Positions 5,257 to 61,973 of a stretch of DNA of 64,000 nt are shown here, piece by piece (positions within the stretch are counted from its first letter, which is position 1; each line of letters starts with the position of its first letter). The stretch is taken from positions 247,257 through 311,256 of the forward strand of contig JAHCID010000003.1 of NCBI GenBank assembly GCA_026129405.1. Direction: 5' to 3'. A model generated the notes under the pieces. The model did no database searches, was not told the DNA's origin, and was given only the letters and a program-made list of their open reading frames with translations. The DNA comes from a bacterium. Lineage in GTDB: Bacteria; Desulfobacterota; Binatia; DP-6. Position numbers and translations under genes: made by a program.

Positions 5257-5260
5257 CGCC

Positions 5261-6202: not shown

Positions 6203-6215
6203 TTTGTGACCACCA
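6185..6215. promoter_or_regulatory. Divergent control region with GACCACCA direct repeats (E1)
   Basis: Two exact GACCACCA copies (6185-6192 and 6208-6215) have starts 23 bases apart, about two helical turns. They flank the most AT-rich run of the element, which includes TTTTTCTCATTTTGTGACC. They lie between the divergent zinc-finger and AlpA genes, so an operator is likely. The protein that would bind is unknown. Confidence 0.5.
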
Positions 6216-6270
6216 CTTTCCGGATCGTCGCTCTCGACCTCCGGCACCCATCCACACACCATCTCGTCGC

Positions 6271-9118: not shown

Positions 9119-9207
9119 CGAGGGACAACCCGATGACCGCCAGGGGCGAGGCCCGACGCCCGTTCCTGGCCCAACCGCGCCGGACTCGGCGCAGCAAGGG
9201 GAGGTGA
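9115..9207 (+). CDS. Possible 30-aa leader ORF before the integrase (E1)
   Basis: The ATG overlaps the previous stop (ATGA), and the TGA lies four bases before the integrase ATG, within its ribosome binding site (GGGGAGGTGA). The peptide is basic and featureless. It may only couple translation of the integrase to the upstream gene. Confidence 0.25.
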   Translation: MTRDNPMTARGEARRPFLAQPRRTRRSKGR

Positions 9208-9211
9208 CGGC

Positions 9212-10516: not shown

Positions 10517-10580
10517 GCGATGCTCCCAGGGCCGCGGCAGATCCTGACCGATTCATTAGACACGCCGCCGGTCCCATTTC

Positions 10581-10602
10581 TTTGTGACCTGTTTGTGACC
10601 TG
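10581..10602. repeat. Tandem TTTGTGACCTG repeat near attR of E1
   Basis: TTTGTGACCTG occurs twice back to back in the 142-base gap between the integrase stop and attR. Such short direct repeats near an att core are typical arm-type integrase or excisionase binding sites. A related TTTGTGACC lies in the AlpA control region at 6203-6211. Confidence 0.5.
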
Positions 10603-10658
10603 AGGCCGGACGGGGACTCCTAAGCCGACGCGTGGGGCGCGAAATCGTTACAGATTCA

Positions 10659-10703
10659 GCATGCCCCCGGCAGGAATCGAACCTGCGACCCCCTGCTTAG
10701 GAG
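10659..10703. repeat. attR of E1 within tRNA-Arg
   Basis: This 45-bp copy is identical to 170-214. It overlaps the tRNA-Arg gene from the anticodon loop to its 3' end, so the integrated element restores an intact tRNA on this side. Confidence 0.92.
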
Positions 10704-10734
10704 GCAGGTGCTCTATCCACTGAGCTACGAGGGC
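10662..10734 (-). tRNA. tRNA-Arg (CCT anticodon)
   Basis: The 73-nt gene reads on the minus strand. The acceptor stem is GCCCTCG with CGGGGGC, the anticodon arm is CCTGC-CTCCTAA-GCAGG with anticodon CCT, and the T arm contains TTCGATTC. No CCA is encoded. The gene is the integration target of E1 and is intact, because attR supplies its 3' half. Confidence 0.95.
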
Positions 10735-42278: not shown

Positions 42279-42406
42279 GCGGCAGCGCTGGGATCGGGCC
42301 ACGCGCTCGGCACCGGGGGGCGCCGCGGGGCGCACGAGGCCCTGGAGCGAGGCTGGCGGCGATGGCGTTGCACGCCGCCTTCGGCTTGCCGCCCCTCGAC
42401 GATCGC

Positions 42407-42433
42407 TTGCACCGCGCGCGCGTTGCCGATAAC
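42407..42433 (+). promoter_or_regulatory. Native promoter of tRNA-Lys, now orphaned at E2 attL
   Basis: TTGCAC (42407-42412) and GATAAC (42428-42433) lie upstream of the truncated tRNA-Lys 5' half, with 19 bases between GATAAC and the tRNA start. Equivalent elements occur at exactly the same distances before the intact tRNA-Lys at the right end of E2. After integration this promoter reads into the element's left end. Confidence 0.55.
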
Positions 42434-42452
42434 GGCGCGTCATCGCACGCCC

Positions 42453-42491
42453 GAGCCGTTAGCTCAGTCGGTAGAGCAGCTGCCTTTTAAG
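42453..42491. repeat. attL of E2 (5' fragment of tRNA-Lys)
   Basis: The 39 bases are identical to 52720-52758 and contain the tRNA-Lys 5' half through the anticodon (CTTTTAA). The 3' half is missing here, so it is not functional. The identity block extends toward the tRNA 5' end, opposite to the usual 3' arrangement seen in E1. Confidence 0.92.
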
Positions 42492-42658
42492 ATTCGACGA
42501 AGGGGCGACGGGGTGCCACACGATGTCGCCGACGGACTCGAATCGAGCAGCGATCCGACGACTTGCGGGGCTCTCGCGGCGCGCGCCGACAACGCTCGGA
42601 CACCCCGCGTGGCAAGGCGTCGCTCCACAGCGCCTCCACATCGGACGGCGGTAAGATC

Positions 42659-43126
42659 GTGGCCGAGTGTCAGAGCATCCCGGCGCTGGAGGCGGCGTTC
42701 ATCGGCGCAGCCGGCGGCCTCGTCGTCGCGCTGCTCAACGCGCTCCTCACGCAACGGCGCGAGCACCGACAGTGGCTCCGCGACCAGCGCGTCGAAGTGT
42801 ACGCGCAGCTCCACCGTGTCGGCCGCGAGCTGGAGGACGCCGGGAACCAGCTCCATGGCGTCGTCACGGGACCGCACGGCGCCTACGACTGGGCCGTCGG
42901 TCCGGCCACTGACCGACTACGGACGTCCACCCATGACCTGTTGCAGATGTACGAGCGGCTGGAGCTGGTCGGCTCGCAGAGACTGGTCGACGTGGCGTCT
43001 CCGCTGTGGGAGCTGGCGTTCCACCTCAAGGACGACCTGACGCACGGCCCGTTCGATCGCACCGCCTTCGCGGACAGGTGGAATTCGCCAGACGAGGGGG
43101 GCGAGAGTCTGGCGTCCCCTGCGTAA
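42659..43126 (+). CDS. Membrane-anchored coiled-coil protein, accessory gene of E2
   Basis: The 155-residue protein starts at GTG 42659; the longer frame has no support. One N-terminal hydrophobic helix (AAFIGAAGGLVVALLNALL) is followed by a basic QWLRDQRVEVYAQLHRV segment and a long helical cytoplasmic region. Such proteins are common in phage and defence islands, but their role is undefined. It replaces the 94-aa gene of E1 in the slot beside attL, so it may be cargo such as an exclusion or defence factor. That is inference. Confidence 0.6.
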   Translation: MAECQSIPALEAAFIGAAGGLVVALLNALLTQRREHRQWLRDQRVEVYAQLHRVGRELEDAGNQLHGVVTGPHGAYDWAVGPATDRLRTSTHDLLQMYERLELVGSQRLVDVASPLWELAFHLKDDLTHGPFDRTAFADRWNSPDEGGESLASPA

Positions 43127-43263
43127 GCTCCGAGGGCGGCTCAAGGCGTGGGCGCGCGCGTCTACCCTGGCGCCGCGGAACCGTTGCCTAATTCGCAGCG
43201 GGGCTCGGAAAACCGACGCTCCGACGCCACGTTGCCGGGCGCTGTGGAGCCGTTGCGGAGCGC

Positions 43264-43779
43264 GTGCCACCCACTCACACTGCGCCCGTGGCAGACGAGA
43301 GCAACGCGATACCTTCCGGTGCAGCGTCGAAGGGCGGTGCATCGAAGCGCCGTCGCGGCCGGCCGACGCAGCATGGACTCAAAGCCATGCGCCGCGCGCT
43401 CGCCGTGCTCGGCACCGATCGGCTCGACGGCCGCAGCGCCATCGCGCAGGCGGCTCGCCGCTTCAAGCTCGACCTCGTGCGCGACCTCGGAGGCGACCCG
43501 TCGGCGCAGCAGCTCGCGATCATCGAGGTTGCGGCGCGCACCATGCTGCTGCTCTCGTCGGTGGACGACTGGATCATGCGCCAGCCGTCGCTGGTGAACG
43601 CGCGCAAGAAAGCGCTGCTGCCGGCCGTGCGCGAGCGCCAGCAGCTCGCCGACTCACTGGCCCGGATGCTCGGCCAGCTCGGCCTGGCGCGAAAGGCGGC
43701 GCCCGTCGAGAGCCTGGACGCCTACCTTGCCCGCCGCGCTGCGGAGACGGCCGCGCAGAATGCGCAGAACCCCGGGTAA
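43264..43779 (+). CDS. Small terminase candidate (E2 copy)
   Basis: The protein has 171 residues (GTG start). It shares the AT-hook-like SKRRRGRPT and the whole C-terminal helical body with the E1 protein, but the first about 45 residues differ. The recombination junction at 43387 falls just after the basic motif. If this is TerS, the N-terminal DNA-binding tip differs between elements while the rest is identical. Confidence 0.55.
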   Translation: MPPTHTAPVADESNAIPSGAASKGGASKRRRGRPTQHGLKAMRRALAVLGTDRLDGRSAIAQAARRFKLDLVRDLGGDPSAQQLAIIEVAARTMLLLSSVDDWIMRQPSLVNARKKALLPAVRERQQLADSLARMLGQLGLARKAAPVESLDAYLARRAAETAAQNAQNPG

Positions 43780-43889
43780 GGTCGTCCAGGTCGTCCACCT
43801 CGTCCAGAACGTCCGCCCCGCGGGCCTTATTCGCGGACGAGGTCTGGACGAGAGGTCGTCCGAGGTCGTCCGAGGTCGTCCAGGGAGCG
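43766..43889. repeat. GGACGACC-type repeat cluster (copy A, E2)
   Basis: This is identical to 1340-1463 and lies just after the small-terminase gene. E2 also carries the related inverted copy B at 50711-50840, so here the two copies bracket about 7 kb in opposite orientation. Confidence 0.7.
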
Positions 43890-44070
43890 GCCGTCCTGCG
43901 CGCGTAGCCGGCTCGTGCGCCTCGCGCCGTCGAGACGTGCACCGTCGGAGAGGCCGCATCGACACGGGCCGTCTCTGGCGCCGCATCACATGACCGGTCA
44001 TCCCGTCACGGGGATCTAGCTCCACGGGAAGCAACGTGACGAGCGCCGGCCATCCGCGCACGATCGCGCC

Positions 44071-45564
44071 ATGCAGCTTCTCGCCGCGCTCGACGATCCC
44101 AAGCTGTTTGCGCCGTTCTTCCCGAGCCCGGCGTGGGATCGGTGGCGGACGTTCTTGCGCGTGCTCACCGGACAGCCGTTGTCGGGCGACGAGCTGGCGG
44201 TGTTCACGCAGGCGACCGGGCGCACCACGGCGCCGACGGTGCCGGCGGCGGAAGCGTGGGTCGTGTGCGGCCGGCGTGCCGGCAAGTCGCGGGTCGCGAG
44301 CGTCGTCGCCGCCTACACGGCCGCGCTCGCCGATCTGTCCAAGCTCGCGCCCGGCGAAACCGGCGTCGTGCTCTGCTGCGCCGTCGACAAGGCGCAGGCC
44401 GGCGTCATCCTCGGCTACATCCGGGCGCTCTTCTCGGACGTGCCGTTGCTGCGGTCGCTGGTGAGCAACGAGACGGCCGAGAGCATCGAGCTGCGGCGCC
44501 GGGTGCGGATCGAGGTGAAGAGCAGCAACTATCGGGCCGTCCGTGGCGTGACGCTGCTCGCCGCGGTGCTGGACGAGTGCGCGTTTCTCCGCGACGAGGC
44601 GAGCGCGCTGCCCGACGTCGAGCTGTACCGGGCGCTGAAGCCCGCGTTGGCCACGACCGGCGGGCTCATGCTCGGGCTCTCGTCGCCGTGGGCGCGTCGC
44701 GGGTTGCTCTGGACGAAGTACCGGAAGCACTGGGCGCAGGACGGGTCGGTGCTGGTGTGGCAGGCGCCGTCGACCACGATGCACCCCGGGCTCGATGCGG
44801 AGCTGATCGCCGAAGCGCGGGAAGACGACCCGGAGGCGGCGGCGGCCGAATGGGATGCCTGTTTCAGAGCCGACCTCGAAAGCTACTGCTCGGCCGACGT
44901 GCTCGACGCCTGCACGGCCAACGGCGTGACGGAGCGCCCGCCGATCGACGGCGTGGCCTACGTGGGCTTTCTCGATGCCGCGGCGGGCAGCGGGCGCGAT
45001 AGTTTCACGGCCTGCGTGGCGCATGCCGAGCTGCGCGGCAGCGGACCGCCCTTCGTGCTGGTCGACGCCGTGCGCGAGTGGCGACCGCCCTTCGATCCGC
45101 TGGCCGTGGCCGAAGAGGCGGCCACCTTCCTGCGCGGGTACCGGATCGAGGTGGCGCAGAGCGATGGCTACGCCGGTGCATGGGTCTCCGAGGCCATCGC
45201 CCGGCACGGCGTGCACGTCCTGCAAGACGCGGAGCCGCGCTCGTCGCTGTACCTCGCGGCGTTGCCGTTGCTCACGGGCAGACAGTGCGAGCTGTTGGAC
45301 CTGCCGCGAATGCGCACACAGTTCGCGCAGCTCGAACGGCGCCGCCGCGCCGGAGGCCGGGACGTCGTCGACCATCCGCCGGGCGGGCACGACGACCTGT
45401 GCAACGCGGTCGCGGGTGCCATGGTCCGCGCCGTCGCCTTCGCCGACGAGGGTCGGGCGCTCCCCGAGCTGGTCCGCCACCACGGCACCGACGACGCGAC
45501 CGAGACGATGCGCGAGCACCTGGCGACGTTGCCGAGCTGGGTGGCACACGGCGACCCGCCCTGA
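44071..45564 (+). CDS. Phage terminase large subunit (E2 copy)
   Basis: The 497-residue packaging ATPase/nuclease is identical to the E1 protein, with intact Walker A (CGRRAGKS), Walker B (AAVLDE) and nuclease acidic residues (D302, D365, D441/D442). Two functional copies in one genome with identical DNA argue for very recent exchange rather than long-term duplication. Confidence 0.95.
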   Translation: MQLLAALDDPKLFAPFFPSPAWDRWRTFLRVLTGQPLSGDELAVFTQATGRTTAPTVPAAEAWVVCGRRAGKSRVASVVAAYTAALADLSKLAPGETGVVLCCAVDKAQAGVILGYIRALFSDVPLLRSLVSNETAESIELRRRVRIEVKSSNYRAVRGVTLLAAVLDECAFLRDEASALPDVELYRALKPALATTGGLMLGLSSPWARRGLLWTKYRKHWAQDGSVLVWQAPSTTMHPGLDAELIAEAREDDPEAAAAEWDACFRADLESYCSADVLDACTANGVTERPPIDGVAYVGFLDAAAGSGRDSFTACVAHAELRGSGPPFVLVDAVREWRPPFDPLAVAEEAATFLRGYRIEVAQSDGYAGAWVSEAIARHGVHVLQDAEPRSSLYLAALPLLTGRQCELLDLPRMRTQFAQLERRRRAGGRDVVDHPPGGHDDLCNAVAGAMVRAVAFADEGRALPELVRHHGTDDATETMREHLATLPSWVAHGDPP

Positions 45565-45605
45565 GGCGTGACCACCTTTGCCCATCCACGTAACCACGAC
45601 GGTGG

Positions 45606-46028
45606 ATGGACACCGCCTGCACCGTCGTCGCTCCCGCTGCGATCGAGCCGCGCGCCCTCGTGCCGGACGGGAGTGGGCCGCGCCGCCATCGCCGTGCCGT
45701 TTCGGAGCCGGCGCTGGTCGTGGCGCTCGTGCCGGACGTGGAGCGCCGCCGGGCGCTCGCCGCGCGCTTCTGGCGCTACGTGCGGCGCGGCGACCTGCGG
45801 GCGTGCTGGCCGTGGGTGGCATCGACGAACCTGCACGGGACGGCGCGCTTCAAGATCGACGGCTCGCGCGAGGTGCCGGCGCCGCGCGTGGCGTGGCTGC
45901 TCGTCCACGGTGGCGTCCCGCTCGGCTGCATCGTGAAGCACCTGTGCGCCGATGCGACGTGCTGCAATCCGTCGCACCTGACGCTCGACCCTCCGGTGCG
46001 CCCGGCGCGGCTCCGGGAGCTGCCGTGA
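45606..46028 (+). CDS. HNH endonuclease (E2 copy)
   Basis: The 140-residue HNH_3-type nuclease is identical to the E1 copy and lies directly downstream of terL. Its stop overlaps the next GTG by four bases. It is likely a packaging cofactor. Confidence 0.88.
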   Translation: MDTACTVVAPAAIEPRALVPDGSGPRRHRRAVSEPALVVALVPDVERRRALAARFWRYVRRGDLRACWPWVASTNLHGTARFKIDGSREVPAPRVAWLLVHGGVPLGCIVKHLCADATCCNPSHLTLDPPVRPARLRELP

Positions 46029-46273
46029 CGCTCTCGCCCTGCGGCGCGTGGATCGCGACCGCATGGCGCCGGCTCGGCGAGCTGGCCGAGGCCGTCGCCG
46101 TCCCGCCGAGCTTCCGGCCCGACGTCGCGCTCATGGCGAGCGAGGAGCTGCGGCGCCGCCTCTACGTCGCCGAGCACACGGCCGCGGGCCGCTTCTGGTG
46201 GCGCGAGCTGGAGCGCGCGTGCGTCGACCTCTCCGAAGGCACCTGGGACCGCCCCGCGTGGGGGCTCTCGTGA
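46025..46273 (+). CDS. Hypothetical 82-aa protein (E2 copy)
   Basis: The small helical protein is identical to the E1 copy and coupled by GTGA overlaps on both sides. No domain is recognised. Confidence 0.65.
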   Translation: MTLSPCGAWIATAWRRLGELAEAVAVPPSFRPDVALMASEELRRRLYVAEHTAAGRFWWRELERACVDLSEGTWDRPAWGLS

Positions 46274-47361
46274 TCGATCTCCGCATCGCCAGCGGCACGC
46301 CGGAGGAGCTGGCCGCGATCGTCGATCGCTTCGAGCGGTTGCGCGGCGTGATTCAACCGCCGTTGACCGTGCCGGGCGCGATCATCGACCAGCCCGACGG
46401 CCAGCCTGCTCTGGGCTGGGTGTCCGCGCTGCGCCGCCTGGGCGACACGCTCGTGGCGACAATCACCGGGGCGCCGCGCCTGGTCGCGGACGTGCTCCGC
46501 GCCGGCGCCTACGAGGCCGTTCGCGCCGGGTTCTATCCGCACTGGGAAGAGACGACCGCGGAGACGAACGTGCAGAGCGGCGTGCGCGGCAAGGTGCTCG
46601 CGGGCGTGACGCTCGTGGGCGCCGCGCTGCCGACCGCCGCGACGCTCGACGACCTCGCCCGCATCCTGGCCGCCCGCGAGCTGCGCACCGTGCCGCTCGG
46701 CGGGCTCACCTTCACCGACTACCGTCCGAAGGAGGACGACATGCCCTTGCGTTTCGATGCCGAGGCCGCGCAGCGCGCGCTCGACGGCTACGCCGAGCAG
46801 ATCATGGATAAGCACCACTGGCCCCGCAGCTCCTCCGCCTGTTGGCGCCGCGCCTTCGCGGTCGCGCTGCACGAGCATCCGGAGCTGGACGTGCGGCTGG
46901 CCGAGGAGGTGCAGCTTCGCGAGGCCGTGCGCGTCATCTGCCGCGAGAACGGCCTGAACGCGAGCGATCCGAAGGACCGGGCGCAGGCGCTCGGGATGCT
47001 GAACGAGCTGGCCGAGTACGAAGCCCTGATGCCGGCGTCGCTGCTCGCCGAGAAGCGTGCCCGCCGGAAGCGGCGTGAGGGGCCGCCGGGTACGGTGCAG
47101 ACGCGCTACAGCGAGCGGGCGCCGGTCGTGCCGCCCGAGGTGCGCGACCTCGTGCAGCGCTTCGCCGACGAGCTCGGCGTCACGTGGGACGACCGCGCCG
47201 GGCGCGAGTGCATCGTGCGGTGCATCGAGCGCCAGTACCCCGAGCGCGCCACGGCGCTGCCGCCGGAGCTGCGTCGTCCGGATCCGCGTGGGTACAGCGT
47301 CGGGCTCGCCCCTCGCCTGCCGGGCGGCGGCGCGACCGGCGTGCCGCGGATGATGGGCTGA
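46270..47361 (+). CDS. Mu gpI-like head protease/scaffold protein (E2 copy)
   Basis: The 363-residue protein is identical to the E1 copy. The N-terminal protease-like segment is followed by a charged scaffold-like half. No capsid gene accompanies it. Confidence 0.65.
   Translation: MIDLRIASGTPEELAAIVDRFERLRGVIQPPLTVPGAIIDQPDGQPALGWVSALRRLGDTLVATITGAPRLVADVLRAGAYEAVRAGFYPHWEETTAETNVQSGVRGKVLAGVTLVGAALPTAATLDDLARILAARELRTVPLGGLTFTDYRPKEDDMPLRFDAEAAQRALDGYAEQIMDKHHWPRSSSACWRRAFAVALHEHPELDVRLAEEVQLREAVRVICRENGLNASDPKDRAQALGMLNELAEYEALMPASLLAEKRARRKRREGPPGTVQTRYSERAPVVPPEVRDLVQRFADELGVTWDDRAGRECIVRCIERQYPERATALPPELRRPDPRGYSVGLAPRLPGGGATGVPRMMG
46741..47361 (+). CDS. Nested scaffold-like product (E2 copy)
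   Basis: The in-frame ATG preceded by AAGGAGGA gives the same 206-residue product as in E1. The signal's preservation is not independent evidence, because the module is a recent copy. Confidence 0.6.
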   Translation: MPLRFDAEAAQRALDGYAEQIMDKHHWPRSSSACWRRAFAVALHEHPELDVRLAEEVQLREAVRVICRENGLNASDPKDRAQALGMLNELAEYEALMPASLLAEKRARRKRREGPPGTVQTRYSERAPVVPPEVRDLVQRFADELGVTWDDRAGRECIVRCIERQYPERATALPPELRRPDPRGYSVGLAPRLPGGGATGVPRMMG

Positions 47362-47525
47362 TGCCGCGCGATCCGCACCTGCGCGCCGCGCTCGACACGT
47401 TGACCGGCGCGACCTGCACCTTGCCGCGCCCGGCCCGCCAGACGCTCGCGGAGGAGCTGCGGCAGGCACGCATCGCGCTCGCGAAGTTCGACGAAACGAC
47501 GGAGGACACGACCCATGCGGTATGA
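47361..47525 (+). CDS. Hypothetical 54-aa protein (E2 copy)
   Basis: Identical to the E1 micro-gene; one-base overlap with the upstream stop. Confidence 0.6.
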   Translation: MPRDPHLRAALDTLTGATCTLPRPARQTLAEELRQARIALAKFDETTEDTTHAV

Positions 47526-47682
47526 CCAGAACGCGGTGGACGCCCACGGCAAGCTGACCGAGGCGCTGCGGTTCCTCGACGCCGCCTGTACCCACACGGA
47601 CGCCGACGAGGCGGTGCGCGCCGCGCGGACGAAGGCGCAGGAGGCCGCGGCGCTCCTCGCGACGAACGGCTACTGCGGGTGA
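47515..47682 (+). CDS. Hypothetical 55-aa protein (E2 copy)
   Basis: Identical to the E1 micro-gene, with GGAGGA upstream. Helical, two cysteines, no known family. Confidence 0.6.
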   Translation: MRYDQNAVDAHGKLTEALRFLDAACTHTDADEAVRAARTKAQEAAALLATNGYCG

Positions 47683-47686
47683 CGCC

Positions 47687-47761
47687 GTGTCCGTGATCTT
47701 CGCGCCGATCGCGGCCGGGCAGAGCGTCAGTTCGGCGTACGCGATCGAAGAGTTCGCGTGA
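47687..47761 (+). CDS. Possible 24-aa mini-protein (E2 copy)
   Basis: Identical to the E1 mini-ORF; its stop overlaps the next GTG and it may only couple translation. Confidence 0.35.
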   Translation: MSVIFAPIAAGQSVSSAYAIEEFA

Positions 47762-48045
47762 CGGGCGAGGCGGCGGCGTTCAGCGCGGAAGCCGTGCTGC
47801 CGGTGCAGCTCGTGGCGGGCCGCGCCGATAGCCCCGAACGGGCGCTCGCCCGGGCGGTGCTCGGCCAGGCGGTCGAAGATGCGGCCCGGGGCGATCGGGC
47901 GGCGCTCCGGTGGATCCACTCGGAGAGCCGCGCGTGGCCGTTCGCGTTCCTGAATCTGTGCGATGGGCTCGCCGTCGAGGCGCAGGCGCTCCGACGGCGG
48001 GTCGGACGGGCGACGCGGGCGCGGCGCTCGCGCCTGCGGGCGTGA
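47758..48045 (+). CDS. Hypothetical 95-aa phage-type protein (E2 copy)
   Basis: Identical to the E1 copy; it is the last plus-strand gene of the shared module and converges with the zinc-finger gene. Confidence 0.65.
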   Translation: MTGEAAAFSAEAVLPVQLVAGRADSPERALARAVLGQAVEDAARGDRAALRWIHSESRAWPFAFLNLCDGLAVEAQALRRRVGRATRARRSRLRA

Positions 48046-48070
48046 CGGCGGGGCGGCAGCGCTCGTACCA

Positions 48071-48628
48071 CTAGAACGGCAGCGCGTCCTCGTCGGCGTC
48101 GCCGCCGATGTCCCACTCGACGACGTGCAGGGGCGGCGCTTCGCGAGCCGTGCGCCAGTCGCCCCCCGGCGCGCGGGTCGGGGCCGGCGGGTCAGGCTCG
48201 CCCGGCGCGACGAAGACGACGGTGGCGCGGCGAGGATGGGACGGACCGCCGCGCTTCGCCTGCATCGCGGCCGTCTTGCGCTCGCGGCGGGCACGGCGCC
48301 CGCAGTCCGCCGAGCACGACTCGGGCGGGCGCCCACGGCCGCCGGTGCGGGGCTGAAGGAAGATCGCTCCGCAGGCGGGACACTCGCGCAGCCGGCGGCG
48401 CAGGCTCTCGTCGCGCGCGAGGAGCTGCACGGTGCTCCACTCGGCGGACGCGCGTTCGCCAGCGATCTCGGCCAGCTCGGCGGCGTCGTGCGGATCGTTC
48501 GGGACGAGCGTCACGGCGGCGTCGGAAAGGAGGCTTGCGAGCGCCCAGCGCAGGCGCCGGCGCGTGGTCGCGGCCGTGAGGAGCGCCGTCACGGCGGCGT
48601 CGGAATTATCGACCACCATTTTTCTCAT
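48071..48628 (-). CDS. CGNR-like zinc-finger protein, antisense (E2 copy)
   Basis: The 185-residue protein is identical to the E1 copy from the chosen start. The upstream in-frame extension differs by one residue (D to A), which supports the view that the shorter start lies within the exchanged block. Probable regulator of the divergent AlpA operon. Confidence 0.6.
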   Translation of the reverse strand: MRKMVVDNSDAAVTALLTAATTRRRLRWALASLLSDAAVTLVPNDPHDAAELAEIAGERASAEWSTVQLLARDESLRRRLRECPACGAIFLQPRTGGRGRPPESCSADCGRRARRERKTAAMQAKRGGPSHPRRATVVFVAPGEPDPPAPTRAPGGDWRTAREAPPLHVVEWDIGGDADEDALPF

Positions 48629-48641
48629 TTTGTGACCACCA
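48611..48641. promoter_or_regulatory. Divergent control region with GACCACCA repeats (E2)
   Basis: The same paired GACCACCA sites and AT-rich run as in E1 (6185-6215). Just to the right the two elements begin to differ, so the exchange boundary falls at this switch region. Confidence 0.5.
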
Positions 48642-48696
48642 CTTTCCGGGTCGGCGCTCTCGACCTCCGGCACCCATCCACACACCATCTCGTCGC

Positions 48697-48936
48697 ATGG
48701 CAACCGACGAGAGCAACAGCAGCACGGTGCTCCGCATCCGTGACGTCTGCAACCGGCTCGGGATCTGCCGCCAGACGCTCCAGCGCTGGCGCGATAACGG
48801 CAGCTTCCCTGCGCCCATCATCCTGGGGCCGCGCACCGTTGGCTGGACGGTCGCTGCCCTCGACGAGTGGATTCGCAACCGTCCGCACGGCAACGCGGCC
48901 GTGACGCCGCCGATGAAGCGGGAGCCGACGCCGTGA
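48697..48936 (+). CDS. AlpA-family HTH regulator/excisionase (E2)
   Basis: The 79-residue protein differs from the E1 protein only by Pro for Ala near the C-terminus. It has the AlpA winged-helix pattern with LGPRTVGW and a C-terminal DEWIRNRP helix. First gene of the rightward replication-integration operon. Confidence 0.88.
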   Translation: MATDESNSSTVLRIRDVCNRLGICRQTLQRWRDNGSFPAPIILGPRTVGWTVAALDEWIRNRPHGNAAVTPPMKREPTP

Positions 48937-49232
48937 CCACGTACCGGGTGCCGCTCGCGACCGACAGCGCGGAGGACGCCGAGCGCGAGGAGCACGCCGA
49001 CCTCGACCGGATGGGGCTCGACGACCTCGAACACGAGCTGTGTCGCGTCGTCGTCGCGCTCGCTGCCATCGACCGCCGCGACCCCGCCCGTCCCTGGCTT
49101 CTGGAGCGGCTGCGCCGCGTGCGGGCGGCCATCCGGGAGCTGAACACCGAGATTGCGACGGCCCGGCGTGCAAGGCCGGGCGTCGCTCGAAGGACTGACC
49201 GCTATGACCGCCTCCGCTCTACCGGCTCCTGA
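48933..49232 (+). CDS. Hypothetical 99-aa helical protein (E2)
   Basis: This is the homologue of the E1 protein at 6507-6806, same length, with conserved DDLEHELCRVVVALAA and LRRVRAAIRE segments and a diverged N-terminus. It overlaps the AlpA stop and the ATPase start. Conserved position suggests a replication or control accessory role. Confidence 0.65.
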   Translation: MTTYRVPLATDSAEDAEREEHADLDRMGLDDLEHELCRVVVALAAIDRRDPARPWLLERLRRVRAAIRELNTEIATARRARPGVARRTDRYDRLRSTGS

Positions 49233-50940
49233 GCCCGTCGACAACGTGATGCACGCGCCGCCGCGCAGTGACCTCGTGGCGCTCGTCGATGACTGGCAGC
49301 TCTGGCACACGCCGGCTGGCGTGCCATTCGCGAGCATCCCCGTGGGCGACCACTGGGAGCATCATCCGCTGCTGTCGCGGGCGGCGCGCTCGGCGTTGGC
49401 GCGCACGGCCTACGAAGCGACGGGCCGCCCCCCTCGGAGCGCCGCGCGTGCAGAAGCGCTCGACGTGCTCGCCGGAACCGCGCTGTTCGCGGGGCCGACG
49501 CATGACGTGCACGTGCGCGTCGCGGCGCATGGGAGCGCGGTCTACCTCGACCTCGGCGACCCCGACTGGCGGGCCGTGGAGGTGACGGCGGACGGCTGGC
49601 GCGTCGTGAGCGACCCGCCGGTGCGTTTCCGCCGCCCGCGGGCGCTGGCGGCGCTGCCGGTGCCGGTGGCGGGCACGGTCGATGCGCTCCGTGCCGTCCT
49701 GCCCGTCGCCAGCGACGACGACTGGCACGTGCTCGTCGCGTGGCTGCTCGCGAGCCTCAGGCCGCGCGGCCCGTACCCGCTGCTCGCGCTCCACGGCGAG
49801 GCCGGCTCCGGCAAGAGCACCGCGGCGAGGGTGCTGCGCGCCGTGCTCGACCCCTCGACGGTGCCGCTGCGCTCGGCGCCGCACGATGATCGCGACCTCG
49901 TCATCGCGGCCCAGCATTCGTGGGTGCTCGCGGTCGACAACGTCTCGACCGTGCCGCCGTGGCTCTCGGACGCGCTGTGCCGCATCGCGACCGGCGGGGG
50001 CTATGGCGCGCGCGAACTCTATTCGGACGCCGAAGAGGTTGTGCTGGAGGCGCAGCGCCCGGTGTTGCTCACGGGCATCGAGGAGCTGGCGACCCGCGGC
50101 GACCTCGCCGACCGCACGTTGTCGGTTGTGCTGCCGCCGATCGCCGATGCGGAGCGCCGCACCGAAGCGGAAGTGTGGGCGGCCGTCGATGCGATGCGCC
50201 CCGGTGTGCTCGGCGCGCTCCTCGACGGCGTGGCGTGCGGGCTGCGCACGGAGGCGGCCGTCCAGCTCGCGCACCTGCCGCGGATGGCGGACGCGGGCCG
50301 CTGGGTCTACGCGGCGGCGCCGGCCGTCGGGTTGGATCCCGCCTGGGTGCTCGCGATCTGGGAGCGCCAGCGCGAGGAGGCCGCGACGACGACCCTGGAG
50401 GCGTCTGCCGTCGGTGCCGCCGTGCGAACGCTCATGGACGACGTGCCGATGTGGCGAGGTTCGATGGCGGCGCTTCTCGCGGCGCTCGCGGCCGGCCAGC
50501 CGGAGGCCGTCACGCGGGATCGCACGCGTTGGCCGCAGTCGACGCAGGCTCTCTCGGGTGCGTTGCGGCGCCTCGGGTCGGCCCTGCGCGCGGTCGGGAT
50601 CATCGTGGCGACGGGGCGCGAGGCGAAGGCCAGCCGCGCGCGGTGGGTGTCGCTGTGCCGGGAAGGTCGTCCACCTCGTCCACCTCGTCCGGATCTGAGC
50701 GCCGACGGGGCGGATCCTGGACGACCTCGGACGACCTTGGACGACCTCACCTCGTCCACCTCGTCCACGAATGAGGCCCGCCGGCCGGAGGTTTTGGACG
50801 ACCTGGACGACATGGACGACGTCGCCCGGGGTTCTACACACTGCCGGCACTGCCACGAGCCGACGCTGAATACCGGCGACGCCGGCCCGGAGTGCGCGCC
50901 CGGTCACGGGTGCGCCGGGGATGTGGAGGCGCCGCGATGA
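49204..50940 (+). CDS. P-loop replication ATPase, non-DUF3631 type (E2)
   Basis: The 578-residue protein starts at 49204. A Walker A GEAGSGKST (about 198-206) is followed by a Walker B-like WVLAVDNVST (about 240-249) and a STLSVVLPP-like sensor region, resembling phage/plasmid primase-associated ATPases. The C-terminus is unusual: an Asp-rich repeat LDDLDDMDD encoded by the GGACGAC repeat cluster, then a Cys-rich tail (CRHCHEP...CAPGHGC) that may bind zinc. It occupies the position of the DUF3631 ATPase of E1 but is a different family. Confidence 0.75.
   Translation: MTASALPAPEPVDNVMHAPPRSDLVALVDDWQLWHTPAGVPFASIPVGDHWEHHPLLSRAARSALARTAYEATGRPPRSAARAEALDVLAGTALFAGPTHDVHVRVAAHGSAVYLDLGDPDWRAVEVTADGWRVVSDPPVRFRRPRALAALPVPVAGTVDALRAVLPVASDDDWHVLVAWLLASLRPRGPYPLLALHGEAGSGKSTAARVLRAVLDPSTVPLRSAPHDDRDLVIAAQHSWVLAVDNVSTVPPWLSDALCRIATGGGYGARELYSDAEEVVLEAQRPVLLTGIEELATRGDLADRTLSVVLPPIADAERRTEAEVWAAVDAMRPGVLGALLDGVACGLRTEAAVQLAHLPRMADAGRWVYAAAPAVGLDPAWVLAIWERQREEAATTTLEASAVGAAVRTLMDDVPMWRGSMAALLAALAAGQPEAVTRDRTRWPQSTQALSGALRRLGSALRAVGIIVATGREAKASRARWVSLCREGRPPRPPRPDLSADGADPGRPRTTLDDLTSSTSSTNEARRPEVLDDLDDMDDVARGSTHCRHCHEPTLNTGDAGPECAPGHGCAGDVEAPR
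50711..50840. repeat. GGACGACC iteron cluster at 3' end of E2 ATPase gene (copy B)
   Basis: GGACGACCT occurs at 50719, 50729 and 50739 with 10-base spacing, about one helical turn. Inverted TCGTCCACC units and three further GGACGAC units follow near 50795-50821. The segment aligns with the reverse complement of copy A. It lies in coding sequence, which suggests the DNA pattern is what is conserved. Candidate replication origin. Confidence 0.65.
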
Positions 50941-51284
50941 CGCCCGAGCTGGCCGAGCTGCTGCGCCTCATCACGAACCCGGCGACCGTCCGCACCGTGC
51001 CGCCGGAGCGCATCGCGTCTTTGCGGGCGGCGGCGCGTGAGATGCACGCGGCGCTCGGCCGCGTAGAGGGGCAGCTCGATGCCCGATGGGAGCCCGCGAA
51101 GCCGGCCCCGGACGTCCTGCTCGACATGGAGGCGGTCGCCGCGCTCACGGGCTACTCGCCGAGCTGGCTCCGCAAGCGCGGGCACCAGCTCGCCGGCTTT
51201 CACCAGCCGCGCGGCCGGGGCGGGAAGGTCGGTTGGTGGCGGGCGCCCCTGCGGGCGGCGCTTGGACTTGCTAGCGATACATGA
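50937..51284 (+). CDS. HTH protein, possible excisionase (E2)
   Basis: The 115-residue protein starts at 50937, overlapping the ATPase stop (ATGA). The C-terminal half (DMEAVAALTGYSPSWLRKRGHQLAGF...GWWRAPLRAAL) resembles a MerR/excisionase-type winged helix. It occupies the slot equivalent to 8750-9118 in E1 but is clearly different. Confidence 0.65.
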   Translation: MTPELAELLRLITNPATVRTVPPERIASLRAAAREMHAALGRVEGQLDARWEPAKPAPDVLLDMEAVAALTGYSPSWLRKRGHQLAGFHQPRGRGGKVGWWRAPLRAALGLASDT

Positions 51285-51305
51285 TCGGGGATAGACGAGA
51301 CGCGT

Positions 51306-51479
51306 ATGCCGAAGCCGAGAAAGCCCGGGGCGCCGCTGGTGCGCACCACGTTGGAGCTGCCGCCTGCACTGTGGCGGGCGGCGAAGATCCGCGCCATGGA
51401 CGAGCGGCGCGACCTGCGCGCCGTCATCATCGACGCCCTCCGGGCCTACCTCGCGACACCCAAAGGAGGCAGCGCATGA
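51306..51479 (+). CDS. Ribbon-helix-helix (CopG/Arc-like) protein, 57 aa
   Basis: The frame from ATG 51306 encodes a basic N-terminus, a beta-strand VRTTLELP and two helices PALWRAAKIRAMDE and LRAVIIDALRAYLA, the typical RHH layout. Its TGA overlaps the integrase ATG (ATGA), and it carries the integrase ribbon of AAAGGAGG just before its stop. It is probably an autoregulator or excision factor of E2; E1 has none. Confidence 0.7.
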   Translation: MPKPRKPGAPLVRTTLELPPALWRAAKIRAMDERRDLRAVIIDALRAYLATPKGGSA

Positions 51480-52633
51480 AGACGCAACGGACCTTGGAAC
51501 CGGGGATATTCCAACGCGTCGATCCTCGCACCGGGAAGTGGCTCCCGAAGCTCTGGATCCACTATCCGAAGGCGACCGGCGGCACGCAGGACGAGCCGAC
51601 CGGCACGACCAGCCGCGTGCAGGCGCGCAAGCTGCGCGCGCAGCGCATGGCGGAGCAGTCGAGGGGCGAACCGGGCCGCGCCGCCGAGAAGGTGCGCGTC
51701 GGCGAGCTGCTCGCCGCGCTGCTCACCAACTACGAGGTGAACGACCGCGGCTCGCTGCGCACGCTCCGGTCGCATCTCAAGGTGCTCCTGCCGACGTTCG
51801 GCCACCTGCGCGCGATCGACTGCACGACGGACACCATCGAGCGCGCGCAGCTCCGATGGCAGCAAGCCGGCACGTCCAACGCGACGATCAACCGCCGCGC
51901 GAACATGCTGCGGCGGGCCTTCAACCTTGGCCGGCGGGCGCGGCGCGTGCACGTCGTGCCCTACGTGCCGCGGCTCGACGAGCACAGCACGCCGGGCCGC
52001 TACATCCCGGCGGCGGACGCCGCGGCGCTGCGGGCCGCACTGCCGCCCTACCTGCGCGAGTTTTTCATGTTCGCCTACGACCACGGCACGCGCCGCGGGC
52101 AGCTCTCCCGCACGCAGCGCCGCTTCGTCGACCTGGCGCGGGGCGTGATCGCGTGGCCGGCGGCCGAGTGCAAGGCGCGCGAGGCGCACACGGTCCCGTT
52201 GGAGGGCGACGGCCTGGCGATCGTGGAGCGGCTGATGGAGCGCCCGCCGCTCTGGTGCCCGTACCTGTTCCACGGCCCGAAGTGCCGCCCGGGGCAGGCG
52301 CCCTCGAAGGAATACGGCTGCATCGGCGACTTCAAGAAGGCGTGGGCGTCGGCCTGCGAGCGCGCGGGCCTCCCGGCCGGCCGGAAGGCGGGGGGTTTCA
52401 CGTTCCACGGAACGCGGCACAGCGCGGCGACGAACCTCCGGGCCGGCGGCATGGACGAGGCCGACGCCATGCAGATCACCGGGCACCAGACGGCGCACGT
52501 CTTCCGGCACTACAACATCGGCGACGTGGAGACGCTGCGCGCGCGCCTCGCGGCCGCTCGCACCGGGCAGCGCGGCACCGTGACGCCGCTGCGGGCGCGC
52601 GGCGGCAACGCGCGGCAGCCCGTTTCAACCTGA
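51476..52633 (+). CDS. Tyrosine integrase of E2
   Basis: The 385-residue recombinase starts at 51476 behind AAAGGAGG. A SAM-like core-binding domain (about 65-165) precedes the catalytic domain. Catalytic residues visible are Arg in DHGTRRGQLSR, the FHGTRHSAATNL box (HxxR) and GHQTAHVFRHY (His and Tyr nucleophile). It is shorter than and only distantly related to the E1 enzyme, consistent with use of a different tRNA. Confidence 0.95.
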   Translation: MKTQRTLEPGIFQRVDPRTGKWLPKLWIHYPKATGGTQDEPTGTTSRVQARKLRAQRMAEQSRGEPGRAAEKVRVGELLAALLTNYEVNDRGSLRTLRSHLKVLLPTFGHLRAIDCTTDTIERAQLRWQQAGTSNATINRRANMLRRAFNLGRRARRVHVVPYVPRLDEHSTPGRYIPAADAAALRAALPPYLREFFMFAYDHGTRRGQLSRTQRRFVDLARGVIAWPAAECKAREAHTVPLEGDGLAIVERLMERPPLWCPYLFHGPKCRPGQAPSKEYGCIGDFKKAWASACERAGLPAGRKAGGFTFHGTRHSAATNLRAGGMDEADAMQITGHQTAHVFRHYNIGDVETLRARLAAARTGQRGTVTPLRARGGNARQPVST

Positions 52634-52673
52634 CACCCGGCCCGTTTCTCCACAGCAACTCCACAGCGCTGGC

Positions 52674-52700
52674 TTGCCACGCGGGCCCCGAGCGGATAAC
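52674..52700 (+). promoter_or_regulatory. Element-borne promoter for tRNA-Lys
   Basis: TTGCCA (52674-52679) and GATAAC (52695-52700) lie inside E2 at exactly the same distances from the tRNA as the native copy at 42407-42433, and the two regions are about 65% identical over 52 bases. The element therefore supplies a substitute promoter for the tRNA it interrupts. Confidence 0.6.
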
Positions 52701-52719
52701 TGCGCGCAAACACACGCGA

Positions 52720-52758
52720 GAGCCGTTAGCTCAGTCGGTAGAGCAGCTGCCTTTTAAG
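52720..52758. repeat. attR of E2 within tRNA-Lys
   Basis: This 39-bp copy is identical to 42453-42491 and makes the 5' half of the intact tRNA-Lys; the host chromosome supplies the 3' half. Confidence 0.92.
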
Positions 52759-52792
52759 CAGCGGGTCGCTGGTTCGATCCCAGCACGGCTCA
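52720..52792 (+). tRNA. tRNA-Lys (TTT anticodon)
   Basis: The 73-nt gene has acceptor stem GAGCCGT with ACGGCTC, D arm AGCTCAGTCGGTAGAGC, anticodon loop CTTTTAA (anticodon TTT) and T arm TTCGATC. The gene is a hybrid: its 5' half and promoter come from E2, its 3' half from the host. Confidence 0.95.
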
Positions 52793-57980: not shown

Positions 57981-58247
57981 TCAGGACGAGCACTCGTCCT
58001 TCGAGGGCGGCGTGCGCTCGCAGGCCATCGTCTGGGTGACGCCGGAGGCGAGGAACGCGCAGGTGTTGTTGATCGCCGATTGACGCGCCTCGCCCGCGGA
58101 GGCGCCGTCGACGGCCCGGCATGCCTGCCGGCCCTCGAACACGATACAGATCTCGCAGCGTACGCTGCCGACGTGCAGGCTCGACCAGACGACGAGGCCG
58201 ACCACGAGGGAGAGCGCGATCGCCGTCACCCACGACGTCCACTTCAT
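57981..58247 (-). CDS. Small single-pass protein with conserved cysteines
   Basis: The 88-residue protein has one N-terminal transmembrane helix or uncleaved signal (MKWTSWVTAIALSLVVGLVVW) and five cysteines in the exported part (VRCEICIVFEGRQACRAV...NTCAFL...MACERTP). It is convergent with the large secreted protein gene and divergent from the glycosyltransferase. No family is recognised. Confidence 0.6.
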   Translation of the reverse strand: MKWTSWVTAIALSLVVGLVVWSSLHVGSVRCEICIVFEGRQACRAVDGASAGEARQSAINNTCAFLASGVTQTMACERTPPSKDECSS

Positions 58248-58337
58248 GGGCGCAGTGCCTACGCGAGGGCCCCCGCCGGTACAACCGCGGCGACGTGGTC
58301 GCCGGACGGGACGACGCGTGCTAGCAGACGGACGCGG

Positions 58338-59495
58338 ATGGCCCCGTCGGTCTTCGTCGCGTCGGGATTCACCGCGCAATACCCGGAGGGGGGCGGCAGC
58401 CTGTGGGTGCCGCTCCAGTACGTGCGCGGGCTGCGCGATCTCGGCGTCGACGCGTGGTGGCTGGAGGTCCTCTGGCCGCACGGCGACGAGGCGCGCGACC
58501 GCGCCTACGTGGCGACGTTCCTGCGCACGATGACCGCCCTCGGGCTCGGCGATCGCACGGTCCTGCTCTATGCCCCGCGCGGCTCGCGCGACGACGTCCC
58601 CGACGTGATGGAGCACTACGGGCTCACGCCCGAGGCGTTGCGGGCGCGGGCGCGCGACGGCCTGCTCCTGAACCTCGCCCACAGCGTGCCGAAGCCCCTC
58701 CGCGGCGACTTCGCCCGCACCGTGCTCTTCGACATCGACCCGGGCGCGTTTCAGCTCTGGGCGCGCGAGTGGGACATGGGCGTCGGCAGCCACGACGTCC
58801 ACCTGACGATCGGCCAGAACCTCGGCGGCGCGGACTCTCCCGTACCGCTCGGCGATGTGACCTGGCACCGCACGTGGCCCGCGGTGCATCTGCCGAGCTG
58901 GCCGGCGCAGCCGCCGCCCGCGCCCGACGCCGCGTACACGACGGTGACGCAGTGGTGGAGCGGGCACTACGCCTTCCTCGACGGCGACGCCTACGACTGC
59001 AACAAACGCAGCGGCTTCGTGCCGCTGCTGCCGCTCGCGCGCCGCGTATCGGTGCCGCTCGAGCTGGCTGCGAACCTGCATGCGGACGAGCGCGAGGACC
59101 GTGCGCTGATCGCGGCCGCGGGGTGGCGTCTCGTCGATCCCGCGGAGGTGGCCGGCACGCCCGAGACGTTCCGCCGCTACGTGCAGGCGTCGCGCGGCGA
59201 GCTCAGCGCGGCGAAGCCGGCATACGTGAAGGCGCGCCCCGGATGGATCAGCGATCGTACGGTCTGCTACCTCGCGAGCGGCCGTCCCGCCGTGGTCGAG
59301 GAGACCGGAGTGTCCGCGCACCTGCCGGCGTCGTCCGGGCTGCGCTTCTTCCGCGGCGCCGACGAGGCGGCCGAGGCGATCCGCGCCATCGAGGCCGATC
59401 CCGTCGCGGCCGGCCGTGCGGCGCGGCGGCTGGCCGAGGAGGTGTTCGCCACGCGGGCCGTCCTGCCGCGCCTGCTGCGACTCGTCGGCGCTTGA
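58338..59495 (+). CDS. Glycosyltransferase-like protein (GT-B type)
   Basis: The 385-residue protein starts at 58338. N-terminal PEGGGSLWVPLQYVRGLRDLG fits a Rossmann-like donor domain, and C-terminal YVKARPGWISDRTVCYLASGRPAVVEETG resembles the acceptor/donor cleft of GT-B enzymes. No catalytic pair can be confirmed. It precedes a Gfo/Idh/MocA dehydrogenase, so both may act in sugar modification. Confidence 0.65.
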   Translation: MAPSVFVASGFTAQYPEGGGSLWVPLQYVRGLRDLGVDAWWLEVLWPHGDEARDRAYVATFLRTMTALGLGDRTVLLYAPRGSRDDVPDVMEHYGLTPEALRARARDGLLLNLAHSVPKPLRGDFARTVLFDIDPGAFQLWAREWDMGVGSHDVHLTIGQNLGGADSPVPLGDVTWHRTWPAVHLPSWPAQPPPAPDAAYTTVTQWWSGHYAFLDGDAYDCNKRSGFVPLLPLARRVSVPLELAANLHADEREDRALIAAAGWRLVDPAEVAGTPETFRRYVQASRGELSAAKPAYVKARPGWISDRTVCYLASGRPAVVEETGVSAHLPASSGLRFFRGADEAAEAIRAIEADPVAAGRAARRLAEEVFATRAVLPRLLRLVGA

Positions 59496-59528
59496 CAGCC
59501 GGGGTGGCCGCGCGCCAGACCGCCGCGC

Positions 59529-60524
59529 ATGGCGACGGTCGACGGCGAAGCGCCGTTGCGCATCGGGGTTCTCGGGGCGGCGCGCATCACGCCGATGGCG
59601 CTGCTGACGCCGGCGCGGCGCACGGCCGACGCGGAGGTCGTCGCGATCGCGGCCCGCGACCCGGCGCGTGCCGGCGCCTTCGCCGCACGCCACGGCATCC
59701 CGCGGGTGCACGCAGACTACGACGCCCTCATCGACGATCCGGCGATCGACGCCGTCTACAACCCCCTGCCGAACTCGCACCACGGCGTGTGGACGATTCG
59801 CGCCCTGGAAGCCGGAAAGCACGTCCTGTGCGAGAAGCCGTTCGCGGTCGACGCGGTGGAGGCGGAGGGCATGGCGACGGCGGGACGCCGCAGCGGTCGC
59901 GTGCTGATGGAGGCGTTCCACTACCGCTACCACCCGCTCTTCGCGCGGCTGCTCGCGATCATCGACGCGGGCGAGATCGGACAGGTGCGGCATCTCGAGG
60001 CGCACTTCTGCATCCCACTGCCGCGCCCGAGCGACATCCGCTACCGCGCCGACCTCGCAGGCGGTGCGCTCATGGACACGGGCTGCTACACGATCTCGAT
60101 CCTGCGGCACCTCGCGCGCGCCGAGCCCACCGTCGTCTCGGCACGCGCCCGCTGGACGCGCGGGGGCGTCGATCGCTGGTGCGCGGCGGAGCTCGCCTTC
60201 CCGGGCGGACGCACGGCGCGGCTCACGTGTGCGCTGTGGTCGGCGGTGGGCGTGCGCATGTCCGCGCGCGTCGTCGGGAGCGCGGGCACGCTCGGCGTGA
60301 TCAACCCGATCGCACCGCAGTTCTGGCACCGCCTGTCGGTGCGCACGGCGCGCGAGCGGCGCGCGGAGCGCGTTGCCGGACCGTCGAGCTACGCCGGCCA
60401 GCTCCGCGCCTTCGTCGATGCCATCCGCCGGGGGACGCCGTTCCCGACCACGCCGGAGGACGCCGTCGCGAACATGCGCGTGATCGACGCGATCTACGCC
60501 GCGGCCGGGCGGCCTCAGAGGTAG
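59529..60524 (+). CDS. Gfo/Idh/MocA family oxidoreductase
   Basis: The 331-residue protein has an N-terminal Rossmann fold (IGVLGAARITPMALLTPAR), the EKPF motif in CEKPFAVDAVEAEG (about 99) and the downstream beta-sheet domain with MEAFHYRYHPLF. It is an NAD(P)-dependent sugar or inositol-type dehydrogenase. Its 3' end overlaps the convergent gpmA gene by 10 bases. Confidence 0.9.
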   Translation: MATVDGEAPLRIGVLGAARITPMALLTPARRTADAEVVAIAARDPARAGAFAARHGIPRVHADYDALIDDPAIDAVYNPLPNSHHGVWTIRALEAGKHVLCEKPFAVDAVEAEGMATAGRRSGRVLMEAFHYRYHPLFARLLAIIDAGEIGQVRHLEAHFCIPLPRPSDIRYRADLAGGALMDTGCYTISILRHLARAEPTVVSARARWTRGGVDRWCAAELAFPGGRTARLTCALWSAVGVRMSARVVGSAGTLGVINPIAPQFWHRLSVRTARERRAERVAGPSSYAGQLRAFVDAIRRGTPFPTTPEDAVANMRVIDAIYAAAGRPQR

Positions 60525-61120
60525 CGCTTCTCGCGCACGGCTCCGTCGGGGCCGAGCACGTACGCGAGCGGCGCACCGGTCGGGATCTCGAGCTTCAGGA
60601 CCTCGTCGCGCGTGAGCCCGTCGAGGTGCATCACGAGCGCGCGCAACGAGTTGCCGTGCGCGGCGACGAGGACGTTCTTCCCCGCGCGCAGGTCGGGGAG
60701 GATGTGCCCCTCCCAGTAGGGGATGACGCGCGCCGCCGTGTCCTTCAGGCTCTCGCCGCCGGGCGGCGGGACGTCGAAGCTGCGGCGCCAGATGTGCACC
60801 TGATCGGCCCCGAACTGCTTCGCTGCCTCGGCCTTGTCGAGCCCCTGGAGGTCGCCGTACATGCGCTCGTTGAGCGCTGCGTCGCGCTCGACGAGCGGCA
60901 CGGTGATCGCGGCGGCCGCGAGGGCGAGGTCGGCGGTGTGGATCGCCCGCTGCAGCGTCGACGTGTAGAGCTTGTCGACGGTACGCCCGCGCAGCTTCAC
61001 GCCGGCGGCGCGGGCCTCCTCCTCGCCCTTCGGGGACAGCGGCACGTCGACCCACCCGGTGAAGCGGTTCTCGAGGTTCCACTGCGACTGGCCGTGGCGG
61101 AGGAGGATGAGATCGGGCAT
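60515..61120 (-). CDS. gpmA: 2,3-bisphosphoglycerate-dependent phosphoglycerate mutase
   Basis: The 201-residue enzyme starts at 61120 (MPDLILLRHGQSQWN). RHGQSQWNLENRFTGW carries the phospho-His, with ALNERMYGDLQGLDK and the later VAAHGNSLRALVMHL His. It interconverts 3- and 2-phosphoglycerate. It is shorter than the 250-aa enterobacterial enzyme but within the range of the compact form. Confidence 0.92.
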   Translation of the reverse strand: MPDLILLRHGQSQWNLENRFTGWVDVPLSPKGEEEARAAGVKLRGRTVDKLYTSTLQRAIHTADLALAAAAITVPLVERDAALNERMYGDLQGLDKAEAAKQFGADQVHIWRRSFDVPPPGGESLKDTAARVIPYWEGHILPDLRAGKNVLVAAHGNSLRALVMHLDGLTRDEVLKLEIPTGAPLAYVLGPDGAVREKRYL

Positions 61121-61226
61121 CGCGAGCACCATAGCGCGGCGCGGCGCGGGCCGCCAAGCAACGCCGTCCTCGTGGCGCGAACGGGTGGTTGCGCGGGTGC
61201 CGGACCGCTGCTACCACCGCCCCCCG

Positions 61227-61973
61227 ATGGCGATCATCGCGCTCTTCGTCGTCCATTGGTTCGCGAGCATCTTCTTCCAGTCGAGCTTCCTGCATCGCTA
61301 CGCGGCGCACCGGATGTTCACCATGGACCGCCTCACCGAGCGCGTGTTCCACTTCCTCACCTGGGCTTCCCAGGGGTCGTCGTATCTGCCACCGCGGGCC
61401 TATGCGATCCTCCACCGGGAGCATCATGCCTTCAGCGACACCGCGAAGGATCCGCACTCGCCGTCGTACTCACCGAACGTGATGGCGATGATGTGGAAGA
61501 CGGCGAAGCGGTTCACCGCGCACGTCGACGGGATCTCGAAGCCGGAGGCGCGCTTCCTCGGCGGCTACCCCGAGTGGCGCATCCTCGATCGCGTCGGCTC
61601 CTGGTGGACGACGCGGCTCGCGTGGGGCGGCGTCTACGTCGGGCTCTACTGGTGGCTCGCGACGGAGTGGTGGATGTTCCTGCTCCTCCCGTTCCACTTC
61701 GGCATGGGGCCGATCCATGGCGCGATCGTGAACTGGTGCGGGCACCGTTACGGCTACCGCAACTTCGCGACCCGGGATCAGTCGCGCAACTCGCTGCCGA
61801 TCGATCTGATCACGTGGGGCGAGCTGTTCCAGAACAACCACCACCACTACGCCGGCCGGGTGAACTTCGCGTTCCGCCGCTACGAGCTCGACGTCACCTA
61901 CCACATCCTCCGCGTCCTCGATCGCCTGCGCGTCATCCGCCTCCGACCCGAGGCGATCCGCGCCGCGGCCTGA
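61227..61973 (+). CDS. Fatty acid (acyl-CoA type) desaturase
   Basis: The 248-residue membrane protein carries the three histidine boxes: HRYAAHR (about 23-29), HREHHAF (about 63-69) and NNHHHYAGR (about 198-206). They define the di-iron integral-membrane desaturases (acyl-CoA/Delta-9 type). It has about four hydrophobic segments. It introduces a double bond into membrane acyl chains. Confidence 0.88.
   Translation: MAIIALFVVHWFASIFFQSSFLHRYAAHRMFTMDRLTERVFHFLTWASQGSSYLPPRAYAILHREHHAFSDTAKDPHSPSYSPNVMAMMWKTAKRFTAHVDGISKPEARFLGGYPEWRILDRVGSWWTTRLAWGGVYVGLYWWLATEWWMFLLLPFHFGMGPIHGAIVNWCGHRYGYRNFATRDQSRNSLPIDLITWGELFQNNHHHYAGRVNFAFRRYELDVTYHILRVLDRLRVIRLRPEAIRAAA

Follow-up and report, generated by a model that had tools for sequence, protein, structure and literature searches.

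The 64,000-nucleotide (nt) stretch analysed here, hereafter the window (contig JAHCID010000003.1, assembly GCA_026129405.1, forward-strand positions 247,257 to 311,256, from a bacterium of the Binatia lineage DP-6), carries a 10.3-kb element, E2 (42453-52758), inserted inside the gene for the lysine transfer RNA with anticodon UUU, tRNA-Lys(UUU). E2 has integrated on the 5' side of the gene, and in doing so it probably replaces the promoter of the only tRNA-Lys(UUU) of the cell with a captured, diverged copy of a host-type promoter. The genome comprises 5.63 Mb in 15 contigs, with the window wholly within one of them. The features on which the argument turns are as follows.

42406-42435, plus strand: native tRNA-Lys promoter, stranded at the left attachment site (attL), in the layout seen in E2-free relatives; TTGCAC 42407-42412, 17-bp spacer, TAACGG 42430-42435
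42453-42491, plus strand: attL core, the displaced nt 1-39 of tRNA-Lys
52673-52702, plus strand: predicted E2-borne replacement promoter; TTGCCA 52674-52679, 17-bp spacer, TAACTG 52697-52702
52720-52758, plus strand: core of the right attachment site (attR), the E2-supplied nt 1-39 of tRNA-Lys, ending in the anticodon loop
52759-52792, plus strand: chromosomal 3' part of tRNA-Lys(UUU), nt 40-73 (ARAGORN, Rfam)

The first 39 nt of tRNA-Lys are duplicated at the two ends of E2 without a single difference (39/39, 42453-42491 and 52720-52758), and ARAGORN and Rfam recognise a full tRNA-Lys(UUU) in the right copy only (52720-52792). E2 thus has the hallmarks of a tRNA-gene element of the 5'-side class, with a flanking direct repeat that equals the end of the tRNA gene, a tyrosine integrase (Phage_integrase domain, 51281-52633) adjoining the rebuilt gene, and an empty site in the family relatives G005, G006 and G002. 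In these genomes gltX and a response regulator precede an uninterrupted tRNA-Lys, which in G005 and G006 is followed by the gene for the protein found at 57984-61469 of the window. Because these neighbours flank an intact tRNA-Lys in the relatives, the left side of E2 holds the native upstream region, stranded at attL, whereas the sequence that now precedes the intact tRNA-Lys(UUU) is E2-derived. The initial annotation had proposed that integration through the 5' half severs the native promoter, and both the duplication and the empty locus bear this out.

tRNA-Lys(UUU) is a single-copy gene, and the sole other tRNA-Lys of the genome has the anticodon CUU, which does not read AAA under standard decoding rules; the UUU gene is for this reason expected to be essential.

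A generic sigma-70 scan found no match at either the native or the E2 site. Since such a scan requires a TATAAT-like box, which is absent from the tRNA promoters of this GC-rich host, a species-specific model with two boxes was built by Gibbs and expectation-maximisation sampling from 35 tRNA upstream regions of the same genome, with tRNA-Lys(ttt) excluded. The best run gave (C)TTG(A/C)C-17-TA as the tRNA promoter of the species. When 127,944 window positions on both strands were scanned with this model, the E2 site (start 52673) ranked first with 15.4 bits and the native attL site (start 42406) second with 14.9 bits, and the native promoter of tRNA-Gln was also recovered near the top. For comparison, the best site per random 70-mer averages 2.3 bits, with a 99th percentile of 9.6. 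Since no tRNA-type promoter in the window scores higher than the E2 site and tRNA-Lys(UUU) is single-copy, the E2-supplied region must, on this prediction, support transcription of the gene.

The two promoters occupy the same position. In both, TTG lies at −46 from the tRNA, and the same TTG-17-TA arrangement can be read upstream of tRNA-Lys in relatives, at −46 (G006 and G001), −47 (G005) and −49 (G002). The initial annotation had placed the boxes correctly on the sequence, each pair 19 nt before its copy of the tRNA (42453 and 52720), and its estimate of about 65% identity over 52 bases is close to the 35/52 (67%) measured here. However, the −10 box that it named, GATAAC (42428-42433 and 52695-52700), lies 2 nt too far upstream, leaving a 15-bp spacer; in the right register the boxes are probably TAACGG and TAACTG, with a canonical spacer of 17 bp.

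The resemblance of the upstream regions extends beyond the boxes. The 35/52 match is ungapped, and none of the 127,888 other 52-mers in the window equals it against the native sequence; above about −50 the similarity drops to 5/10 and then to 2-4/10 per block. Outside the boxes, E2 and attL agree at 24/38 positions (63%), against a mean of 35% and a maximum of 58% for 351 pairings among the remaining host tRNA promoters. Aligned at the −35 box, E2 reaches at most 53% with any other host tRNA promoter. Against the tRNA-Lys upstream region of any relative, E2 scores no higher than 26/52, compared with 35/52 against its own attL; attL and the corresponding region of G006 share 30/52. Furthermore, G27 in the 5' half supplied by E2 pairs with C43 of the host, while family relatives have T27. 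The match outside the boxes, the closeness to the tRNA-Lys of its own lineage and this G27-C43 pair favour capture from that tRNA-Lys, or from one very near it, and descent from a tRNA-Lys promoter appears likelier than convergence.

Some observations weigh against this reading. The unaligned remainder is rich in GC, and outside the boxes the native sequence is matched equally well at 10 of 127,886 positions of the window, so that descent is likely and not certain; moreover, the capture event itself is read from a single genome of the genus. The strongest competitor, unlikely on balance, is that the E2 promoter functions and is convergent, selection having shaped unrelated DNA of the element into a promoter of the tRNA type. 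The boxes and their spacing are the very part that selection would make, and 5'-side elements of two other genomes, G031 and G117, have weaker promoter-like matches over the end of the integrase gene, that of G031 being unlike the native upstream sequence of its host (11/52). Convergence accounts less well for an outside-box match greater than that between any two other host tRNA promoters, for the identical −46 offset and for the fact that the closest sequence is the tRNA-Lys of the same lineage. The original proposal of a captured replacement promoter is supported by the model rank and the single-copy tRNA, and its own refuting condition went in its favour, relatives without E2 having the same upstream layout and not a different one; that the promoter was captured is read from the similarity.

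Under the preferred reading, capture of a host-type promoter, the E2 tyrosine integrase would recombine within the anticodon loop of tRNA-Lys(UUU) using the 5' side of the gene. The attachment module of the element, some 90-95 bp, would be a diverged copy of the start of the host tRNA-Lys gene, promoter plus nt 1-39. Integration leaves the host promoter and 5' half at attL and joins the E2 promoter and 5' half to the 3' half in the chromosome, so that the gene is whole again, and the E2 promoter would drive the sole tRNA-Lys(UUU) of the cell. The junctions, the duplication, the empty locus in relatives and the promoter match with its rank are all seen in the sequences; we infer that this promoter is active, and that it came from a tRNA-Lys locus rather than having evolved in place.

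Alternatively, most tRNA-Lys could come from read-through of the E2 integrase operon, the promoter-like sequence being incidental. Telling against our reading, the integrase gene is co-directional with the tRNA, its stop codon lies 86 nt upstream and no terminator-like site intervenes. Among other 5'-side elements with integrases of this family the distance from integrase stop to tRNA is usually 10-34 nt (11-15 nt in the duplication-verified elements of G051, G031 and G107; 73 nt in G042, which is not duplication-verified), leaving little room for a promoter, and archaeal pTN3-like elements are reported to express the tRNA from the integrase promoter (PMC8371274). Nevertheless, read-through seems improbable, given that E2 carries the best tRNA-type promoter on either strand of 64 kb and that this site is native-like in both position and sequence. 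Integrase operons are usually quiet once integrated, but an essential tRNA with only one gene has to be expressed strongly and steadily. Compared with the other 5'-side elements, the 86-nt gap of E2 with its predicted promoter is an extra. The least probable alternative, that the promoter mainly serves the element by driving the left-end operon across the joined attachment site of the excised circle, with rescue of the tRNA a by-product, is in keeping with the promoter and 39-bp core lying directly before the co-directional first E2 gene in the circle, and with a first gene likewise oriented in four or five of the six 5'-side elements whose duplication was verified, yet the neighbouring element E1 has the packaging module and at its right end nothing that resembles such a promoter (best 4.0 bits), showing that the packaging genes need none, and a single-copy tRNA-Lys would require rescue in any case.

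A doubtful extension of the capture reading is an exchange of promoters, in which E2 would give the host its copy of the tRNA-Lys promoter and take that of the host. In the integrated state the host promoter would read through the 39-nt fragment into the left-end operon, and in the circle the E2 copy would do so. No terminator-like site lies between the stranded native promoter, which points through the tRNA fragment, and the first E2 gene (interval 42492-43126, which includes the gene), and the first gene is oriented likewise in the elements of G107, G051 and G031. If such an exchange occurs, a growth-linked tRNA promoter would always drive the element genes, and host range would depend in part on how well the tRNA half that E2 carries fits (G27 with C43).

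Elements with tyrosine integrases that enter tRNA genes (Campbell/Williams type; Islander) share with E2 the crossover in the anticodon loop, the displaced fragment, the rebuilt gene and the integrase beside it, and the Islander configuration filter retains 5' fragments located upstream (PMC4383910). Such elements usually replace the 3' part of the gene and keep the original promoter, whereas E2 replaces the 5' part; bacterial tRNA genes retain their promoter after integration with very few exceptions (PMC8371274). A similar layout is that of the archaeal pTN3/TKV4-type elements in tRNA-Leu, which share a core of about 41 bp and cut the rebuilt tRNA off from its promoter (PMC5495485, PMC8371274). 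There, integration disrupts the integrase gene, and the 5'-side rebuilt tRNA, of a kind seldom met in bacteria, is thought to use the integrase promoter (PMC8371274). In E2, by contrast, the integrase open reading frame (ORF) stays whole, and a promoter of the tRNA type, separate from that of the integrase, lies between this ORF and the tRNA.

Supply of a new promoter to an interrupted protein gene is established for SXT in prfC and IMEVchUSA3 in dusA, where the element gives a new promoter and 5' end, for dusA by reporter assay (PMC8409611). E2 likewise has a promoter inside the element ahead of the rebuilt gene, as judged by the sequence model only, although it targets a tRNA gene present once in the genome and supplies a promoter similar to the native one. 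Actinobacteriophages with tRNA-dependent lysogeny make up for an essential tRNA that the host loses, often tRNA-Lys(UUU), and supply a promoter of their own (PMC10865867); they carry a whole tRNA gene elsewhere, whereas E2 rebuilds the gene at attR. The principle is thus known; an element that carries, for a single-copy tRNA, a dedicated promoter of tRNA-gene origin is new as far as our literature search reached. Insertions on the 5' side of tRNA genes are described as rare in bacteria, with the expression of the severed gene generally left open, and E2 offers a testable answer in the form of a host-type tRNA promoter, probably captured.

Across 148 genomes of the class, 8 complete related integrases lie beside a co-directional tRNA (5'-side) compared with 19 beside an opposed one. 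The view of the initial annotation that 5'-side integration is less usual agrees with a review in which it is seldom met in bacteria (PMC8371274), but a sizeable minority of insertions by this integrase family in the class are of this kind. A duplicated tRNA 5' end was confirmed at Leu-taa in G051 (10.1 kb) and at Arg-cct in G031 (5.6 kb) and G107 (10.8 kb), and likewise for two elements at tRNA-Ser-tga, in G019 and G070, whose integrase is more distant. In two related elements in tRNA-Ser(UGA), L256 and L257, the copies of nt 1-39 are only 95% and 90% identical, so the tRNA half of the element has diverged from the displaced half.

The promoter model scores the 5'-side elements of G051 and G107 like random DNA and those of G031 and G117, the only others with promoter-like matches, at about 11 bits, with matches that overlap the end of the integrase gene, compared with 15.3 for E2 and a 99th percentile of 11.25 for random 100-mers. 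A tRNA-type promoter in all 5'-side elements was consequently rejected, and a GTAAGT motif ahead of several tRNAs proved to be mostly integrase C-terminal codons beside the stop. The survey shows 5'-side insertion to be common in the class and to come in two layouts, with an own promoter (E2) or with the integrase gene abutting the tRNA. In the tree, the E2 integrase joins the integrase of a 3'-side element from the same genome (100/99), apart from the other 5'-side integrases; use of the 5' side thus seems to have more than one origin, although the branch is long. Elsewhere in the class, nt 32-73 of tRNA-Lys(UUU) recur about 3-10 kb downstream of the gene (L103 in G002:C147, G037:C64 and G027:C134), which therefore seems to be an insertion hot spot open to elements on either side.

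The neighbouring element E1 (173-10734) shares 5,861 bp with E2 at 98.4% identity (E2 43325-49182, E1 899-6756), while the integrase, the replication gene and the ends differ. E1 duplicates nt 32-73 of tRNA-Arg, a cut in the same anticodon-loop region with use of the 3' side. E1 and E2 thus have a common backbone joined to integration modules of opposite polarity, the result either of a recent swap of the integration module or of exchange between two resident satellites. An assembly mix-up was rejected, as matching tRNA halves stand at both ends of each element and the shared core differs at 86 positions. Being 3'-side and having no such promoter, E1 is a natural control for E2. A third element of the same genome, L150 (4 kb, G000:C3:78896-82954), lies on the 3' side of tRNA-Leu(CAG) with nt 31-85 duplicated, and its integrase is the nearest relative of the E2 integrase in the tree.

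Nearly all E2 genes lie on the strand of the tRNA.

42659-43126, plus strand: first E2 gene (GTG start predicted; ORF 42563-43126), co-directional with the stranded native promoter
43264-43779, plus strand: small ORF ahead of the large-subunit gene, possible terminase small subunit from position only; no family match, 98% conserved in E1
44071-45564, plus strand: terminase large subunit (TerL; PHROG 2, E 5.4e-20)
45606-46028, plus strand: HNH endonuclease (Pfam HNH_3; PHROG 826)
46175-47361, plus strand: head-maturation-protease-like protein, start predicted (PHROG 3894, E 2e-6)
48071-48703, minus strand: sole clear minus-strand gene of E2; weak HNH PHROG match (E 0.007), conserved in E1
48697-48936, plus strand: AlpA/excisionase-type regulator (Pfam Phage_AlpA, E 1.8e-10)
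49153-50940, plus strand: AAA ATPase or replication-type protein; weak AAA_16 match, homologues in 11 other genomes of the class
51281-52633, plus strand: tyrosine integrase, directed toward tRNA-Lys and closing a series of ORFs that overlap (Pfam Phage_integrase, E 1.2e-12; PHROG 1, E 1.6e-38)

Searches of Pfam and PHROG matched no capsid or tail gene among the E2 proteins. Because integrase, AlpA, AAA, TerL and protease-like proteins are present and no capsid or tail protein was matched, E2 can be classed, from its gene content, as a terminase-bearing, phage-satellite-like element. Searches of viral contigs yielded no relative of the E2-like integrase or TerL and no match to the pattern of promoter plus core; among phage records only 15% of the E2 integrase was matched, and a search of genome contigs returned one distant integrase. 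Finally, a repeat of about 120 bp (85% identity) in inverted orientation links the late part of E2 (50658-50835) with the early part of E1 (1340-1458), and may represent an origin or a packaging signal.

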